A DNA stretch of 64,000 bases, taken from the NCBI GenBank assembly GCA_014380365.1, contig JACMJZ010000029.1:434001-498000 (forward strand), written 5' to 3'. This document shows positions 1,537 through 49,370 of this stretch, piece by piece. How positions within the stretch are numbered: the first letter of the stretch is position 1; the number at the start of each line of letters is the position of its first letter. Position numbers and translations under genes: made by a program. This DNA is from Pyrinomonadaceae bacterium (GTDB lineage Bacteria > Acidobacteriota > Blastocatellia > Pyrinomonadales > Pyrinomonadaceae). The notes below the pieces were generated by a model that was given only the letters and a program-made list of their open reading frames with translations, was not told where the DNA came from and did no database searches.

Positions 1537-1602
1537 CGAATGCTAAGCTGATCGCTTCGCGGACTCGGCAGTTAGATACCGTCACATGAGAAAGAGGCAG
1601 AA

Positions 1603-2394
1603 ATGGATCTTGGAATAAAAACTCGCGTGGCGCTGGTGGCGGCCGCCAGCAAAGGAATTGGCTTTGCCGTTGCGCTTGAGCTGGCTCGCGAAGGCGCGCG
1701 GGTTTTTCTTTGTTCGCGTGATGAGAAGCGCGCCAGTGAAGCGGCGCAGAAGATTCACGACGAAACTGGCGCGACCGTCGCAGGTATCGGCGCCGACGTC
1801 ACCGACGATCAAGCGGTCGAACACTTTGTCAACGTCGCACGCGAACGCGCCGGGCGTATCGATATTCTGATCACAAACGCAGGCGGACCGCCAGCGTCGA
1901 GTTTTGCCGAGGCCAATCTGGAAGCGTTTCGTAGAGCGTTTGAACTGAATGCGCTCTCGGCAATTCGTTTGGCGAAACTGGTCCTGCCGGGCATGCGGGA
2001 ACAGAAATGGGGCCGCATTGTTAACATAACTTCAGTCTCTGCAAAACAGCCAATTGATGGCTTGCTCTACTCCAACACCGTGCGCGCGGCGCTAACGGGC
2101 TGGGCCAAAACCGTCTCAAACGAAGTGGCGGCGGATAATGTAACCGTGAACAACGTCGCGCCGGGTTACACCCTGACCGGACGCCAGGACGAACTTGCCG
2201 AGGCGCGCAGCCGGGCGCTGGGAAAGTCGAAAGAGGAAATCATCGCGTCATGGGCCACGCAGGGGCCGATGGGCCGAATTGGCCAACCCGAAGAGATCGC
2301 CGCAGCAGTGGCCTTTCTCGCGTCGGAACGGGCTTCTTACATCACCGGCGTTACGCTGCAGGTTGATGGCGGTTGGGTGCGCGGATTGCTCTGA
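1603..2394 (+). CDS. SDR family oxidoreductase (atypical active site)
   Basis: A short-chain dehydrogenase/reductase of 263 residues, the usual length for FabG-like enzymes. The nucleotide-binding turn AAASKGIG is at 13-20, an ADV motif at 64-66 and NAG at 92-94. The C-terminal end (SYITGVTLQVDGGW) is typical of the family. The catalytic YxxxK is not present in standard form. Where Tyr and Lys are expected after Ser144, the protein has Ser157 and Arg161 (context LLYSNTVRAALTGWAKT), with a Tyr one residue earlier. This variant occurs in a recognisable SDR subgroup, so the enzyme may use another mechanism or act mainly as a binding protein. The start is ATG with AGAAAGAGG upstream. The substrate is unknown. 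Confidence 0.88.
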   Translation: MDLGIKTRVALVAAASKGIGFAVALELAREGARVFLCSRDEKRASEAAQKIHDETGATVAGIGADVTDDQAVEHFVNVARERAGRIDILITNAGGPPASSFAEANLEAFRRAFELNALSAIRLAKLVLPGMREQKWGRIVNITSVSAKQPIDGLLYSNTVRAALTGWAKTVSNEVAADNVTVNNVAPGYTLTGRQDELAEARSRALGKSKEEIIASWATQGPMGRIGQPEEIAAAVAFLASERASYITGVTLQVDGGWVRGLL

Positions 2395-2439
2395 CAAAGA
2401 GCGCCTTCGAAAAGACGGCATAGCACAACGGCAAACTCA

Positions 2440-3084
2440 ATGACGAATCAACCGCCCGCTGAGATTGAAGCGCCCTGGATCGCTTCCGACATTCGTGCCA
2501 ACGATATCGAAAGCCCTCTCTGGCTCTCGGCGAATCCGGTCGCTGTAACACGCCAATGGTCAGGAGAAGTCGCTCCACCGTCGCGTCATGCTGAGGCGTG
2601 CATACTTTGGACGAACCAGGCATTGTGCGTCCGGTTCGTTTGCCGCCAAACCGAACCACTAATCATCAGTTCGAAACCTCTCCTCCACGAGAAGTCAATT
2701 GGACTCTGGAACCGAGACGTGTGCGAGATATTCATCGCGCCTGATCCAAGGACGCCTGAAGATTATTTTGAGTTTGAGGCGGCGCCAACGGGTGAGTGGA
2801 TCGATTTGGCAATCAGCTTCGAGGGAACGACTCGAAAAACTGACTTTGAGTTTGAGTCTGGCATGACAGTGTCTGCTTCCATAGTCGGTGAGCAGTTAAC
2901 AGTTGCGATGCGTATTCCGTGGTCCGACGTTATTCCTAAACCGGAAAAGGGGCAGAGGTGGCGCGTGAACCTGTTTCGGTGCGTGGGCACGGGCAACGAA
3001 CGCTACCTTGCATGGCAACCGACCTACACTGCGGAACCAAATTTCCATGTACCGGAAGTCTTCGGCTGGCTAAAGTTTGTTTAG
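2440..3084 (+). CDS. CBM9-like (DOMON-type) carbohydrate-binding protein
   Basis: A 214-residue protein whose layout matches the family 9-like carbohydrate-binding fold: an N-terminal strand, then LWNRDVCEIFIAPDP around residues 88-102, then EFEAAPTGEWID, and a C-terminal block WRVNLFRCVG with a closing WGWLKF-type ending (FGWLKFV). No signal peptide is visible, so it may be cytoplasmic or exported another way. It starts 45 bp after the SDR gene and may be co-transcribed with it. Proteins of this kind are often annotated only as carbohydrate-binding family 9-like; the ligand is unknown. Confidence 0.75.
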   Translation: MTNQPPAEIEAPWIASDIRANDIESPLWLSANPVAVTRQWSGEVAPPSRHAEACILWTNQALCVRFVCRQTEPLIISSKPLLHEKSIGLWNRDVCEIFIAPDPRTPEDYFEFEAAPTGEWIDLAISFEGTTRKTDFEFESGMTVSASIVGEQLTVAMRIPWSDVIPKPEKGQRWRVNLFRCVGTGNERYLAWQPTYTAEPNFHVPEVFGWLKFV

Positions 3085-3109
3085 GAATCCAGCGTTCCGG
3101 GCTCACAAG

Positions 3110-3544
3110 CTACCGCTTCCGCTCGATCAATTCGGAAACGTAGGCGGTAAACGTCGCGCGATCCTCTTCCGGCATAGCAGTGATCTTGACCCCGATGATA
3201 TAGCCCGACTGGCTCTCGTGCTCTTCAAAGGTTTCATAGCGAATCGGCGTGACTTGCATTTCAACTGCGCCAGAGGGCAGTTCCAGTTTCACGTTCAGAG
3301 TGCGATGCTCTCCCACCAGGTGCTGGTCACCGAGACGTATCGCGGGAACGATGAGTGCCAGACCGTTCGGGCTCAGATCCAACGTGTGACCGCCGAGACT
3401 CTGAATTCGTCGGGCGCCATTAAGGCCCTTCGCTGAAGAAGCCATGGAAAGTGAAAACGGCAGGCGGACTTTTTGCCGTTTCGCATGCCGGCGGTCGCCG
3501 ACATACTGACGCAGGCGAGACACGATTGAACGGGTGAGCTCCAT
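3110..3544 (-). CDS. PilZ domain protein
   Basis: A 144-residue protein with the two PilZ signatures that bind cyclic di-GMP: an arginine-rich RRHAKR at about residues 18-23 and DLSPNG at about 54-59. The rest forms the expected beta-barrel-like stretch. It therefore probably senses c-di-GMP in the cytoplasm and could control motility, surface polysaccharide or transcription through a partner. I chose ATG at 3544 because GGAAAAGC lies just before it. A longer frame opens at a TTG at 3625, adding 27 unlikely residues. The gene converges on the CBM9-like gene with a 25-bp gap. Confidence 0.82.
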   Translation of the reverse strand: MELTRSIVSRLRQYVGDRRHAKRQKVRLPFSLSMASSAKGLNGARRIQSLGGHTLDLSPNGLALIVPAIRLGDQHLVGEHRTLNVKLELPSGAVEMQVTPIRYETFEEHESQSGYIIGVKITAMPEEDRATFTAYVSELIERKR

Positions 3545-3814
3545 TGCTTTTCCGATTTCGTTGTCGGGCGGTCCTTGAGCTTCCGAGACGAAAGTCTCCG
3601 GGAATCGACACTTCGGCCTGGCCAAAGGTCCTTGGGTTACTTGAGGGAGGGGGCTTTAACAGGAAACTAGCCGGGAGAGATACCAAGCCATTCTAGTTAG
3701 CCTGGAGCGTGGGTGCAATAAAAAGTTTCAGGGGCAACGGACGGCGCTCGCATCTTGCGCGTGATTGAAGCGCCCAGGCAGGGACCTCGGTGCCCACGGT
3801 CGCGGATGATTAAC

Positions 3815-4630
3815 CTAATTCTTCGGGGGAGAAAGAGCCTTGCCGCCAACATCAGCGCTGCGAACACCTGCGGCATCCATATAAAACGAGAGCCGGCCCG
3901 AGCGGCCATACTGGGCTGGCTCCGCCGTAGCAGTCCACGACTTCCCGCCGGGGGCCACGGTGATGTTAAAGCGATAACCAGTGGACTCTGTGCCTTCGAG
4001 GTCTTTCGGAATCAAACCTGCGGCGATGAGGGTTTGCAGATTGGCAAACTGCCCATTGTGTTGTTGGCTGTAGAGCAGCAGGGCCAAAGAGATTCGGGTG
4101 AACATGTCCTGCACATCGGTGTGGTGTGCGTCGATTCGGGCGTTGAAGAAAAACTTCTTTCCGGCTTTCTTTACCAGCGCCTGGTTTTCACGGTCGCCGA
4201 CGATCCAAACTCCCTCGGCCTTGATCAAGCCAACAGGTTCGATCTTCGGCTTCCCGTCGCTGTCCATCATTCTCACAAACACATCTGCCGATTCGCTGCT
4301 GATTTGTTCTCCGGTGATCTCCAGGTTCTCAGGGATTCCTTCGCTGACAGCCACTGCTATCCGCTCGAAGTCTGGCTTTAAGTCGTCATACTCCTGCGCC
4401 TTCAACCCTTCCAGAGCCGGCCCGTAAATCGACAGTGCCCAAGCTTCCTTGAACCGCTTCTCGCGAAGGGCTTTGTAAAACTGGCGCACTGTTTCAGATG
4501 GCGTCCGCTGCGAACTTTGAGCCCTGGCTGAAACCAGGCTGCCCTGAAACAACAGTAGGTTCACCAGTACCAGCAAGAACAATCGGGGCAGGAGATTTGA
4601 GCTAAACATTAACTTCATTGTCCTTCTCAT
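3815..4630 (-). CDS. Secreted protein with pseudopilin-like C-terminal half
   Basis: A 271-residue protein that opens with a signal peptide (hydrophobic run about 13-34, probable cleavage near SARA/QSS). Residues about 45-150 look like a DUF4878/NTF2-like fold (SETVRQFYKALREKRFKEAW). The C-terminal part, from ISLALLLYSQQHNGQFANL onward, resembles the globular region of pseudopilins, including TGYRFNITV and an ending around GRLSFYMDAAG, but there is no N-terminal pilin helix. It is probably a periplasmic or outer-surface protein. The specific function is not recognised. It lies downstream of the OPT transporter on the same strand, 112 bp away and beyond a strong hairpin, so it is probably transcribed separately. 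Confidence 0.7.
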   Translation of the reverse strand: MRRTMKLMFSSNLLPRLFLLVLVNLLLFQGSLVSARAQSSQRTPSETVRQFYKALREKRFKEAWALSIYGPALEGLKAQEYDDLKPDFERIAVAVSEGIPENLEITGEQISSESADVFVRMMDSDGKPKIEPVGLIKAEGVWIVGDRENQALVKKAGKKFFFNARIDAHHTDVQDMFTRISLALLLYSQQHNGQFANLQTLIAAGLIPKDLEGTESTGYRFNITVAPGGKSWTATAEPAQYGRSGRLSFYMDAAGVRSADVGGKALSPPKN

Positions 4631-43769: not shown

Positions 43770-44699
43770 ATGGTCCAACTTGATTCCAAAAAAAAGAAAG
43801 AAACGCTGACGCTCGTGATGGTCTTCGTGCTGGTTCTCGGCGTGAGCGCTTTGGTTGTCTATCTGGTGGCCGCGAAAAAGGCCCAGAACGAAGCTGCGAG
43901 ACCGGCGACACCGCCAGTTGCCGTCGCCACAACTCCAGAGGTCCGTCCTACGTCTCCACCCAGGTCAGATGGGTCGGTATTTGAAGAACTCTTTGGCGCC
44001 CCTGGAACTACAAGCAATGTCGTCCGCAATGAGAGTGTCGGTGAGGCAGCTGCTGCGATCACCGTCAGACTGTTCCTGGCGGCGCTATTAGGAGCGGCCC
44101 TGGCTTTTCGACCTCGCCGGCGTTTGCGGGCTCTTAAGCGCAATCCCTTCGTGGGTCAGACGCAAATCCTCCTGGCCGTGGTCGCCGCCGCGCTCATGAT
44201 TATCGTGGGCGACAATGCGGCGCGAGCCTTCGGCATTTTTGCGGCTGTATCCGTGGTGCGGTTCCGGACGAACATTCGCGATCCGAAGGAGGTCACGGTG
44301 CTGCTGATTAGTCTGGCAGCAGGGTTAGGCGCAGGTGTGGGTCGTTGGGAGCTATCGCTAATTCTGACGGCCTTCTCGCTCATCGTCCTTTGGATTCTGG
44401 AACATCGCGAGCCGGAACAGGTTGCGCGATCAATGGACCTGACGGTGACAACGAGAGACGTGGCCGCTACCCAAACAGTACTGAGGCAGATTTTTGACAG
44501 TCATAGCTTTGAGGCGGAAATTCGAGGCATCAATCGAGAGACTTCGGAGACGCCACTGGGAAGTTTGTGTTATTTGGTCGATGTAAGTCCGTTAGTTTCG
44601 ACCGACCAAATTAGCACGGAGATTCTGGGACTTGATTCGACTAATGTCGCTAGCGTCGAGTGGAAACAAAAGAAAAGCTTTTCTTACCTGTACCAGTAA
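43770..44699 (+). CDS. DUF4956 family membrane protein
   Basis: A 309-residue protein. It has an N-terminal membrane helix (TLVMVFVLVLGVSALVVYLV), a Pro/Thr-rich linker, three to four membrane segments at about 95-215 with LFLAALLGAALAFRPRRRLR and AFGIFAAVSVVRFRTNIRDP, and a soluble ferredoxin-like C-terminus. This matches DUF4956, whose core resembles MgtC. DUF4956 genes are often beside VTC-type polyphosphate polymerases; here the neighbour is ppk1. A link to polyphosphate or cation balance is therefore reasonable, but the biochemical function is unknown. Confidence 0.82.
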   Translation: MVQLDSKKKKETLTLVMVFVLVLGVSALVVYLVAAKKAQNEAARPATPPVAVATTPEVRPTSPPRSDGSVFEELFGAPGTTSNVVRNESVGEAAAAITVRLFLAALLGAALAFRPRRRLRALKRNPFVGQTQILLAVVAAALMIIVGDNAARAFGIFAAVSVVRFRTNIRDPKEVTVLLISLAAGLGAGVGRWELSLILTAFSLIVLWILEHREPEQVARSMDLTVTTRDVAATQTVLRQIFDSHSFEAEIRGINRETSETPLGSLCYLVDVSPLVSTDQISTEILGLDSTNVASVEWKQKKSFSYLYQ

Positions 44700-44786: not shown

Positions 44787-46286
44787 TTAACGCAGTTGCC
44801 GACTTTGCATTTCTTTCTTATGCGATCGGCGGCGGCGAACCGGTGAACGCTCTTTCAATAAATCCTTGTGCCGGCCCCCGATGATATATGCCAGAGCCTG
44901 ATAACTTAATGAGAGCAGCGAAGCAGCACGCGTGACGCTGCCATTTGCCTGGGCGAGCGCAAGTCTAATCAGGGTGCCTTCAAACTTCAAAACCTCTTCC
45001 TGGAAATTACATGGGGTAGAAATCACTCCTGCGGAGTCTTCGGGTATCTCTTCTCGATTCAACGAGGCGTACACCTTGTTGGCGGCGGCGTTGAATCTCA
45101 CAATCAGGTCGTGGTTTAAAGACTTCGCCAGCCCCTCGCTTGCCCGCTCAAAGGAAGATTGCAGCGTGGTACGCGACAAGTGGTCTAGTTCCTCGATCAT
45201 AGTCAGAGCTGCGAGCCCAGCTATGTTGGAGGCCCCAACTTGATTAGCGACTTCGATGGCCCGTTCAAAAGTATATTGAGCGCGCTCGTGTTGTTTGAGT
45301 CGAGCTAATGCGATGCCCTGCGTGATGAGGGCTTCGGCGAGAAGACCCTGCCGCCCACTTTTTTCGAAGGCCTGAATCGACTGGCGGATTACCGACTCCG
45401 CGTCTGTCAGCTTGTTTTCCGCGATGAAAATCTGCGCCTGAGTTTCCTCGAACTGAGCGACTCGTACTCTATCCTTCACCATCAGCCGTTGGGCTTCAAT
45501 AACGTACTTCTGCGCTTCATTAAAGCGGGATAGGTTGAAAAGAATTAGGGCAACGTTGTTTTTTACGGTGGCACGAAAGTCACTATTTTTAGCGAGCCCG
45601 AAATGATGATCGGCTTTCTCAAATTCCCCGAGTGCCTTTAGCAGGAGATCGTCTCGCCTTGAAGGCTCCGACCTGGACAGATTTCGGAGCACAATCGCGA
45701 GTTCATTGTGATAACTTCCCTTAAGGGAGTGGTTAGAAACGCTCTCAAAAAACACGGCGTTATCATGAAGGAGTCTCGAGGCAACGTCGAATTGTAAGGC
45801 GGAGGATTCGACGACAATCAAATGAAGCAGGGCCCTGGCCCTGGTATTACCCTGGGCGGGCAGTTCATCCAGAGCCTGGTGGAGCATGATTCGCGCTTCA
45901 TTTAATTCGCCGTCCCGCCAATAGCAATAAGCTATCTCTGATCGAGCACTACCAACCCTCTCTGTGTCACCCACTGATTCATAGTAGGTAATGCTCTCGG
46001 TGATGAGATTTTTTGCGACCTCCTGGGCTCCCTTGATCTTCGCTCGACCTCCCACCCATCTGGTTAGAATTCCAGTTGTGAGCAGTACGTCAGCAGCTAC
46101 GGACGGATGCAGCCCTTCAGTGTCCGGGCGTTCTCCCACGCGCCTCCAGAGACGGCGCATCGCTTTCTGAGCGCCTTCGACATCGGATTGATCCTTTAGT
46201 TCGAGCGCGGTCTCACACTTAAAAAGCGCTTCTTCATCAGCGGTAAGGTGCGAAGTGGCCTGCCTGGTTGGCGAGGTTGTTTTCAT
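44787..46286 (-). CDS. TPR protein with C-terminal Fis-type helix-turn-helix
   Basis: A 499-residue soluble protein. Residues about 20-420 are almost entirely paired helices of tetratricopeptide type (for example ARSEIAYCYWRDGELNEAR, VKNNVALILFNLSRFNEAQK, EALITQGIALARLKQHERAQ). Residues about 436-478 resemble the Fis DNA-binding fold (EGTLIRLALAQANGSVTRAA, then SLLSLSYQALAYIIGGRHK). A basic tail follows (RRRRSHKKE). There is no membrane helix or signal peptide. The design suggests a transcription regulator whose TPR superhelix binds a peptide or protein ligand. It is divergent from a small secreted peptide gene, with paired palindromes between them. Confidence 0.82.
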   Translation of the reverse strand: MKTTSPTRQATSHLTADEEALFKCETALELKDQSDVEGAQKAMRRLWRRVGERPDTEGLHPSVAADVLLTTGILTRWVGGRAKIKGAQEVAKNLITESITYYESVGDTERVGSARSEIAYCYWRDGELNEARIMLHQALDELPAQGNTRARALLHLIVVESSALQFDVASRLLHDNAVFFESVSNHSLKGSYHNELAIVLRNLSRSEPSRRDDLLLKALGEFEKADHHFGLAKNSDFRATVKNNVALILFNLSRFNEAQKYVIEAQRLMVKDRVRVAQFEETQAQIFIAENKLTDAESVIRQSIQAFEKSGRQGLLAEALITQGIALARLKQHERAQYTFERAIEVANQVGASNIAGLAALTMIEELDHLSRTTLQSSFERASEGLAKSLNHDLIVRFNAAANKVYASLNREEIPEDSAGVISTPCNFQEEVLKFEGTLIRLALAQANGSVTRAASLLSLSYQALAYIIGGRHKDLLKERSPVRRRRSHKKEMQSRQLR

Positions 46287-46312
46287 GAAAATGGAACCTT
46301 TTCGAAGTGAGA

Positions 46313-46411
46313 GTAAGAATTCTTAAAACACACAGATATTAAATGCCTGCCCAAAAACTTGCAAGAAATTCCGGATGTTGCTTTATTCTTTCCAATGTAA
46401 GAAATCTTGCA
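46313..46411. promoter_or_regulatory. Paired palindromic sites between the TPR-Fis gene and the secreted peptide gene
   Basis: GTAAGAATTCTTA at 46313-46325 contains a perfect 12-bp palindrome. GTAAGAAATCTTG at 46397-46409 matches it at 11 of 13 positions. A third related half-site, GCAAGAAATTCC, lies at 46361-46372, and TGCAAGA (46360-46366) is the inverse of TCTTGCA (46405-46411). The 152-bp gap must hold both divergent promoters, so these are candidate operator sites, perhaps for the adjacent Fis-type protein. Confidence 0.5.
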
Positions 46412-46438
46412 TCGTGAATTTTCAAAGGAGCAACTTTC

Positions 46439-46666
46439 ATGAAACGCCCTGTGATGACAATGGTTTTAACCTGCTTGCTTTCCATGTCGGTTCTGGCCGG
46501 TGACGTACACACCCCTGAGCTTCCGGCGCCTGCGCCCACACCGCACATAACTGCATCGCCGTCAGAAACACCCTTAGCGACCGGCGCTATGGCGACTGAT
46601 GATGTCTTGCGTCAAGCAACTGAGGCTGCACTTTCCGCTCTGCTGTCAGTGCTCAGTTTTGTCTAA
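46439..46666 (+). CDS. Small secreted peptide precursor (75 aa)
   Basis: The ATG follows AAAGGAGCAACTTTC, a good ribosome-binding site. Residues 1-20 form a signal peptide (MKRPVMTMVLTCLLSMSVLA), with a likely cleavage after VLA. The mature part is about 55 residues: a Pro/Thr/Ala-rich linker (ELPAPAPTPHITASPSET), an acidic-polar stretch, and a hydrophobic C-terminal helix (ATEAALSALLSVLSFV). No enzyme motif or cysteine is present in the mature part. It belongs to no family I can name. Its divergence from the TPR-Fis gene suggests a signal, or a secreted factor controlled by that regulator. Confidence 0.68.
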   Translation: MKRPVMTMVLTCLLSMSVLAGDVHTPELPAPAPTPHITASPSETPLATGAMATDDVLRQATEAALSALLSVLSFV

Positions 46667-46919: not shown

Positions 46920-49370
46920 TCAGGCCGGCCTGGAACTTGCCGCCTGTGGCATTCTCTGCGGCCGCGTGCCTGACGTAACGGGGGGGACGACGCGATCCTT
47001 CAGCGCTTCTCGAAACACCTGCCGCATATTCTCAACGTAAACAAAGCGTATATCCTTAAACGGTTCTTTAGCAACCTCTTCTATGTCCCGCCGGTTCTGC
47101 TGCGGCAGGATGATCGTGGAAACACGAGCACGCCGTGCGGCCAGGACTTTCTCTTTGACTCCGCCAACCGGCAGCACGTTGCCGCGCAAAGTGATTTCGC
47201 CGGTCATCGCCACGTCTTTTCTAATCGCACGCCCCGAGAGCGCCGAGACCATCGCGGTTGCCAGCGTGATTCCGGCCGAAGGTCCGTCTTTGGGAATCGC
47301 TCCTTCTGGAATGTGAATATGGAGATCGTAAGTATTGAAGTCCTCTTCATTGATATCCAGATCCTTCGCTCTCGACTTGGCGTAGGAATAAGCAGCCTGC
47401 GCCGATTCACGCATGACCTCTCCCAACTGACCCGTCAGAACCAGATTACCCTTGCCTTTCATCTTGAGGGCTTCGATGAACAGAACGTCCCCGCCGACGG
47501 CGGTCCAAGCCAGTCCGGTCGCTACGCCAATCTGATCTTTCTTGAGCGCTTCCTCCGGAATGATCTTGGGAGCACCCAAAAACTCATGCAGGTTCTTTAG
47601 TGAAACTCTAATCGAGCCTTTGTTTCCCTCCGCGATGCGCCGCGCCACTTTTCGGCAGACACGTCCGATTTCGCGTTCCAACTGACGCAGCCCTGCTTCC
47701 TGCGTGTACTGTTGAATAATTGCCGTCACAGCGGTCCTGGAAATGTGCAGGTCCTTCGCGGTAATGCCGTTTTCTTCCGTCTGTTTTGACATCAGATGGC
47801 GTCGGGCAATTTCCAGCTTCTCTTCCTCGGTGTAGCCCGCCAGACGAATTACCTCCATGCGATCACGAAGCGGCGGTTGGATCGTGTCCAACACGTTGGC
47901 CGTGGTCATAAAGATGACGTTCGACAAATCAAAGGTGACGCCCAGATAGTTATCCCTGAACGAGTTGTTCTGTTCCGGGTCGAGTACTTCGAGCAAAGCT
48001 GACGATGGGTCTCCGCGGAAGTCGGCTCCGACCTTATCAATCTCATCAAGCATGATCAGCGGGTTGTTTGTGCCGATCTGTTGGATAGCTTGAATTACGC
48101 GGCCGGGCATGGCGCCAACATAGGTTCTGCGATGGCCGCGAATCTCGGCCTCGTCGTGGACTCCACCCAGCGACAATCGGACAAACTTTCGGTCCAGTGC
48201 CCGAGCAATGGAACGCCCCAGCGAGGTCTTGCCGACGCCTGGAGGGCCGACGAGACAAAGGATCGGGCCTTTTGGTTTCTCCTTGAGTTTACGCACCGCC
48301 AGCGCTTCAATAATTCGGTCCTTAACTTTCTCCAGACCATAGTGGTCCTCATTCAAAATGCGTTCGGCCTTCAACAAGTCCAGATTGTCAGTGGATGCTT
48401 TCGACCACGGAAGGTCGGTCATGATCTCCATCCAGTTTCTTAGCGTGGCAGTTTCGGCAGCATCCGGATGCATTCGCTCGAGCTTCTTCAGTTGCCGCAG
48501 CGCCTCATCTTCAGCGGCCTTCGGCATCCCAGCTGTTTCTATTTTTTCTCTAAACTGCGCCACTTCCTCGGCGAGCTCGTTGCCCTCACCCAACTCGCTT
48601 TGAATTGCCTTCATCTGTTGACGCAAATAAAACTCGCGCTGTGAACGATCGATGTCAGCCCGCGCCTGAGTGTTGATTTCCTGCTGAACCGTTAGCACCT
48701 CGATCTCTTTGTTGAGCAACTCATTCACACGTCGCAAACGCGTGGTGGTGTCAGCGATGTCCAGGACAGACTGCGCGTCCTCAACCTTAAGTTCGAGATT
48801 CGAGGCAGAAAGATCCGCGAGCCGTCCCGCATCGTCCAGATTCGCAATGATCGCCATCACCTCAGGCGAGATGTTCTTCCCGAGATTGATCGCCTTCTCC
48901 ATCGACGCGCGTACATTTCTGATCAGCGCCTCGACTTCAAGCGAACGCTCCGGAGGCAAGACTTCCTGCATAATCTCGACGCGCGCGCGAATGTAAGCGC
49001 CGCTGGTGTCCACAGATTCGATTTCAGCTCGAGCCAGGCCCTGAACCAGTATGCGGATGCGTCCATCAGGCAACTTCAGCATTCGCATGATCACGGCCGC
49101 AGTCCCTACCTTGTAGAGATCGGCGGCGGCCGGTTCTTCCTTGTCGAGGTCTCGCTGAGACGCGAGCAGGATCATGCGATTCTCGCCGAGCGCTTCATCC
49201 ACGGCCCGAATACTCTTTTCGCGCGACACGAAAAGCGGCACGATCATGAATGGGTAAATGACGATGTCGCGAAGCGGCAACACCGGGAGTTCATTCGGGA
49301 TTTGCAACTCCTGAGAGCTATCAGCGCCTTCGATGTCTTCAACCAGGTCTGCCTCTTTAATGATTGCCAT
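46920..49370 (-). CDS. lon: ATP-dependent endopeptidase Lon
   Basis: An 816-residue LonA protease. The N-terminal substrate-recognition domain begins [20 protein letters not shown]. The AAA+ module has Walker [16 protein letters not shown] and Walker [14 protein letters not shown]. The protease domain has the catalytic Ser698 in [10 protein letters not shown] and the Lys about 43 residues later in [12 protein letters not shown]. It degrades damaged and regulatory proteins in the cytoplasm. A gene for an Hsp20-type chaperone lies just upstream on the same strand, 54 bp away, so the two may be co-expressed. Confidence 0.97.

Follow-up and report, generated by a model that had tools for sequence, protein, structure and literature searches.

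Within the window, a stretch of 64,000 nt of a Pyrinomonadaceae (Acidobacteriota) genome, two genes lie divergently with 152 nt between them, flanked by a gene at positions 43770 to 44699 and by lon (46920 to 49370). On the minus strand, an open reading frame (ORF) running from an ATG at 46286 down to 44787 encodes a 499-aa protein of TPR helices with a C-terminal Fis-type helix-turn-helix (HTH), a candidate peptide receptor and transcription regulator identified from the ORF, Pfam matches, an AlphaFold model, and its paralogues. On the plus strand, an ORF from an ATG at 46439 to 46666, with AGGAG, a good ribosome-binding site, 8 nt upstream, encodes a predicted secreted peptide precursor of 75 aa that has about 100 paired homologues. 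The initial annotation had described a TPR-Fis protein divergent from a small secreted precursor, and each gene lies exactly where it was placed. The host is a soil bacterium that carries many copies of this peptide/TPR-regulator cassette.

The TPR part of the 499-aa protein matches the Pfam model TPR_12 (E = 1e-11), and the HTH matches HTH_8/Fis at residues 435 to 467 with 22.1 bits, barely above the curated cut-off of 22; the AAA+ domain Sigma54_activat is absent from the protein according to Pfam. The AlphaFold model (pLDDT 88.9) consists of a solenoid at residues 16 to 410 (45057 to 46241, minus strand), a disordered linker at residues 413 to 425, a helical HTH at residues 428 to 479 (44850 to 45005, minus strand), which also matches the HTH of FleQ by sequence, and a disordered tail. 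Over residues 16 to 391, the model aligns with Rap and NprR at Z scores of 23 to 26; LGN, the best structural match (Z = 29), and other TPR proteins align alike. The best sequence match is kinesin light chain (KLC), and RapI matches at an E value of only 0.014. TPR folds are common, and such a fold says little about the ligand. The TPR domains of LGN/Pins and KLC bind peptides in the TPR groove; these are eukaryotic scaffold or adaptor proteins without a signaling output domain of the kind found here. The TPR part appears to be a solenoid of the peptide-binding type, and its output domains are interchangeable. None of the PADLOC defense models was matched by the window protein, and relatives match such models solely through shared AAA+/HTH/REC or TPR parts. 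Five paralogues in the same genome are 52 to 58% identical to the window protein.

The small ORF begins with a K/R N terminus and a hydrophobic core, followed by an A-G-D signal-peptidase-like site, a Pro-rich stretch, and a hydrophobic, amphipathic C terminus. By sequence pattern, residues 1 to 20 (...SMSVLA|GD; 46439 to 46498, plus strand) form a putative Sec-type signal sequence, and A20-G21-D22 is invariant among six precursors from the same genome. Across the family, the precursors span 50 to 94 aa and share the signal-like sequence, an A-G-[D/E] site, an acidic Pro/Gly-rich middle, and a conserved C-terminal stretch (consensus D-S-L-T-E-I-A-L-x-L-L-Q-S-V-L-S-L-F) that reaches the stop codon, with F or L favored as the last residue. 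By hydrophobic moment (0.33 versus 0.18 in shuffled sequences), this stretch is an amphipathic helix; in the window, it comprises the last 18 residues (46610 to 46663, plus strand). The initial annotation had proposed checking whether the peptide C termini are conserved, and across the homologues they are. Close homologues evolve under purifying selection (dN/dS of 0.30 to 0.40 in pairs that are not independent of one another), and because of this and the recurrence of such genes beside TPR genes, the small ORF is not a chance reading frame. The window peptide belongs to no Pfam or NCBIfam family, and three representative relatives matched none in NCBIfam.

Many precursors also contain a repeated unit immediately after the signal sequence. 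The first postsignal heptamer, GDVHTPE in the window (46499 to 46519, plus strand), where the repeat is degenerate, is found again within its own precursor (identity, ≥5/7) for 42 of 96 peptides, with a mean of 4.0 matches compared to 2.6 against other peptides (p = 4e-8); 92 different heptamers occur. Such precursors recall Rap propeptides, for which internal repeats and multiple pheromones have been described (PMC11343458). The mature peptides are acidic, with 6.1 D/E against 0.7 K/R residues. At some loci, two or three peptide genes stand in tandem; for example, three family peptides are divergent from one TPR-Fis gene in a genome of the same genus as the window (G009:C17:46400-47356, in L213).

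The pair recurs both within the genome and across the family. Six TPR-Fis genes of the host genome each have a divergent small peptide gene at 152 to 163 bp. A broader peptide profile detects eight strong family peptides there: the six just named, a seventh that consists of repeated GNITSRT units and is encoded 503 bp from a gene for a TPR-HisKA-HATPase-REC protein, and an orphan. The first seven are each divergent from one of the seven full-length TPR genes, and the orphan is not. In Pyrinomonadaceae, enough upstream sequence was available for 105 distinct TPR genes, and a heuristic search placed a small, signal-like ORF in divergent orientation no more than 600 bp from 103 of them; two of these matches (L151 and L163) were spurious by eye, leaving 101 with a real divergent family peptide at a median distance of 153 bp. 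The same heuristic fires in 24 to 36% of similar-sized control windows. In named metagenome-assembled genomes (MAGs) titled Pyrinomonadaceae, Blastocatellia, Chloracidobacterium, or Acidobacteria/Acidobacteriota, all 21 loci detected with the TPR profile have such a peptide. These conservation counts rest on MAGs, and the related sequences in them are not independent. At the thresholds used, 61 of the 162 genomes examined for the class have TPR genes of this type, every one of them from the single GTDB family Pyrinomonadaceae, and a 396-genome sample of the phylum contains none outside that family. Apart from orthologous synteny, no recurrent third gene was found beside the pairs, the peptide being the only recurring neighbor. 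A lack of conserved peptide genes beside TPR-Fis homologues, which by the initial annotation would have refuted the pairing, is not what is seen: the peptide is present at about 96% of the examined loci, in seven copies in the host genome, and with TPR proteins of different output, and it is the sole neighbor common to unrelated loci.

Two further arrangements were observed around family members. An orphan family peptide (L206:4548-4832) is divergent from a gene for a TPR-S plus patatin phospholipase protein (1548 to 4265); this combination was rejected as a further pair because, in relatives, no such peptide gene accompanies the orthologous patatin genes. A partial TPR fragment lies directly downstream of a full-length TPR-Fis gene (L209:8184-8888, in G000:C13; likewise in L019/L115) and seems to be what is left of a tandem duplicate.

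Five kinds of output are found behind the TPR module: Fis; Fis plus receiver; AAA+ sigma-54 activator plus Fis; histidine kinase plus receiver (hybrid kinase); and GGDEF-EAL. Where additional output domains are present, relatives are up to 871 aa long. The window protein has the Fis-type HTH in common with enhancer-binding proteins such as NtrC, PspF, and RtcR but lacks their AAA+ domain; TPR, Sigma54_activat, and Fis are kept together in some relatives (for example, L183 and L203). A sigma-54 promoter beside these AAA+ members was considered and rejected, the few weak matches being partly the palindrome described below. The peptide persists beside outputs that have no DNA-binding domain, namely, hybrid kinases (L207 and L225 to L227) and GGDEF-EAL (L229/L035); the HisKA-HATPase-REC output is found with a peptide in the host genome and in relatives, and the GGDEF-EAL output in one case. 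This persistence is the strongest argument that the peptide belongs to the TPR input and is not merely the target gene of the regulator.

The peptide C terminus also co-diverges with the TPR domain. Distances between C-terminal 18-mers correlate with TPR distances at a rho of 0.48, compared to 0.12 for the signal sequence and 0.12 for the postsignal part, although these are correlations only, joint inheritance contributes to them, and signal sequences saturate quickly. The correlation of the 18-mer holds within genomes (permutation p = 0.0005) and within output classes. The partial correlation of the C terminus is 0.38 with the TPR domain given the HTH and 0.15 with the HTH given the TPR domain, and TPR residues of about 191 to 300 and 1 to 40 carry most of the co-divergence. 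No such relation to the TPR domain is seen for the heptamer repeat, which is the other candidate for the ligand (rho = 0.04). In the genus of the window, two C-terminal types (ALSALL versus TVILTII) fall in different TPR clades; on the TPR tree of the genus, the type changes 3 times against 5.0 expected (p = 0.06), a count that is suggestive only.

The region between the two genes contains several operator-like sites. A predicted perfect palindromic operator, TGTAAGAAATCTTGCA (46396 to 46411), lies 28 nt upstream of the peptide ATG; a TPR-proximal operator-like site with two mismatches, AGTAAGAATTCTTAAA, is at 46312 to 46327; and a half operator, TGCAAGAAATTCCGGA (46360 to 46375), overlaps a conserved promoter-like pair, TTGCAA (46359 to 46364) and TTTATT (46382 to 46387), a region with no match to the standard sigma-70 consensus. 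The six intergenic regions of the host genome align and have copies of TGYAAG-N4-CTTRCA in common: one stands some tens of bases ahead of the peptide ORF, another close to the beginning of the TPR gene, and a half site overlaps the promoter-like pair. Nine bases, CTTGCAAGA, are invariant in all six. With one mismatch at most, 8 of the 27 genome-wide matches to this motif fall between the genes of the six pairs, in roughly 1 kb out of a genome of 5 Mb; genome-wide, the motif is not enriched over a reversed-pattern control (27 versus 45). Of 97 intergenic regions across the family, 33 contain perfect inverted repeats of 7 bp, compared to 6.1 ± 2.3 in shuffles. Because such sites and repeats concentrate between the paired genes, the pair probably regulates itself. 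An operator-based regulon was rejected: the sites examined outside pairs in the host genome were mostly intragenic or unrelated and formed no coherent regulon. Perfect operator-like palindromes were also observed at L281:3031 and L285:2757, the same intergenic region in two genomes, before a gene for a small secreted protein (MKKILSTILSL...) that is a possible regulon member.

Comparison with relatives points to mobility of the pair. In six genomes of the same genus, a gene matching 43770 to 44699 of the window is followed directly by lon, with no TPR or peptide gene. These empty sites in relatives mark the pair in the window as a mobile cassette. A TPR-Fis gene (36% identity) with a divergent, predicted secreted peptide of 76 aa is also present on a viral contig of 41 kb (IMGVR_UViG_3300048897_000119; L277:2613-4419), between the portal gene and methyltransferase/terminase genes. 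This is a single case, three further viral scans having given the same contig or nothing, and it is reminiscent of phage-borne arbitrium or Rap systems.

We interpret the pair as a signaling module of a peptide ligand and a TPR receptor that works in an RRNPP-like manner, with no claim of membership in that family, and assign this reading a probability of roughly 0.55. Under this proposal, Sec would export the precursor, with cleavage after ...A|GD, and the peptide, or a fragment bearing the C-terminal helix, would reach the cytoplasm by re-import, for example, through Opp. There, the helix-bearing peptide would lie in the concave TPR groove and thereby switch the Fis dimer at the C terminus into another state. 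For the pair in the window, this dimer would bind TGYAAG-N4-CTTRCA between the genes and control the expression of both peptide and receptor, so that feedback results; relatives would use the same input to drive a receiver, AAA+ ATPase, kinase, or c-di-GMP enzymes, and paralogous cassettes would serve as parallel channels. The host genome encodes three Opp-type binding proteins, through which re-import is possible in principle; in the searches made, no importer, protease, or target gene was found to be linked to the pairs, the Opp-type proteins included. Several observations count against a signaling module: the best-conserved part of the peptide, a hydrophobic helix, resembles a segment that acts on membranes or is anchored in them more than it does a short soluble pheromone, and one family peptide of the host genome has no homologous TPR partner; the lack of a coherent regulon outside the pairs and of any relation between heptamer and TPR distances points the same way. 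The sensing pair proposed by the initial annotation gains from the conservation, from the different outputs, and from the co-divergence of C terminus and TPR domain, which a sensing pair predicts; that the peptide is the signal, that it is bound, and that cells signal to one another through it, we infer.

The predicted operators shared between the genes, the conserved amphipathic C-terminal helix, and the failure to find a regulon beyond the pair are also compatible with a regulator and an exported effector, in which the peptide would be no more than a target gene of the TPR protein and act outside the cell while the TPR protein senses something else, such as stress or a protein partner. This alternative appears unlikely, given that the peptide keeps its place beside TPR genes with a histidine kinase or GGDEF-EAL output, neither of which can bind its promoter, and that the C terminus of the peptide follows the divergence of the TPR domain more closely than that of the HTH. 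Still less probable is a secreted antimicrobial or membrane-active peptide with a dedicated regulator, bacteriocin-like and possibly self-sensing: small predicted exported peptides with amphipathic, hydrophobic C termini, multiple divergent copies per genome, and tandem peptide genes would suit it, but the mature peptides are acidic, unlike most bacteriocins, which are cationic, and no immunity or dedicated exporter gene recurs beside them. A sensor of export status, in which Sec capacity is reported, without cell-cell signaling, through binding of the TPR protein to the C-terminal helix of precursor that has not been exported, would need no importer, as a cytoplasmic receptor could meet the precursor and its conserved helix before export, but is very improbable, since one housekeeping readout would hardly call for at least seven coexisting pairs that have diverged, for peptide genes in tandem, or for heptamer repeats.

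The signaling module that we favor invites comparison with RRNPP/RRNPPA systems (Rap-Phr, NprR-NprX, PlcR-PapR, Rgg-SHP, and AimR-AimP), with which the pair shares a small signal-sequence precursor beside a TPR protein, several pairs per genome, a TPR solenoid that aligns with Rap and NprR (as it does with LGN and other TPR proteins), and carriage of one pair on a phage contig, as is possible for Rap and AimR. Against the five criteria of PMC10075063 (propeptide size, Sec export, receptor length, peptide-binding TPRs, and adjacency), three features are found: a propeptide of 75 aa in the window (range, 10 to 100 aa), a receptor of 499 aa (about 250 to 500 aa), and direct neighbors (152 nt in the window; 101 of 105 loci). 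The other two are only supported: the signal-sequence pattern, a pattern-based indication of Sec export, is present and conserved, and TPRs are present, with the co-divergence of C terminus and TPR domain bearing only indirectly on binding. By the RRNPP(A) rule, a DNA-binding domain, where there is one, is an N-terminal HTH; the HTH in the window is Fis-type and C terminal. The contrast drawn in the initial annotation, namely, a C-terminal HTH, divergent genes, and a Gram-negative host, is correct, and the host belongs to Acidobacteriota. Furthermore, many relatives are longer than 500 aa, with a receiver, AAA+, kinase, or GGDEF-EAL part as their output, and what is conserved at the end of the precursor is a helix of some 18 residues, not a free 4- to 10-mer.

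Cytoplasmic TPR receptors for secreted peptides have so far been described as a matter of Firmicutes, and the published RRNPP surveys consulted cover Firmicutes only (PMC10075063, PMC9765709). A search of open-access literature yielded no papers on such pairs in Acidobacteriota. We tentatively suggest, at slightly less than an even chance, that Pyrinomonadaceae possess many private peptide channels, with one TPR receptor module coupled to five kinds of output, each encoded divergently from a secreted peptide of its own, mobile and phage carried, as a Gram-negative, independently assembled analogue of RRNPP/arbitrium. If so, a Gram-negative family in which each genome has many paralogous pairs, swappable outputs, and a phage-borne copy would imply that peptide/TPR logic arose or spread beyond Firmicutes, raising the question of how the peptide crosses two membranes and returns. 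Finally, at L220:1158-6758 (G023), two distant TPR proteins of 587 and 591 aa without a recognized output domain lie near two almost identical predicted secreted peptides ending in IEIFDYLKSLFG and IEIFDYLKNLLG, which suggests that the system is broader than the profile used here.
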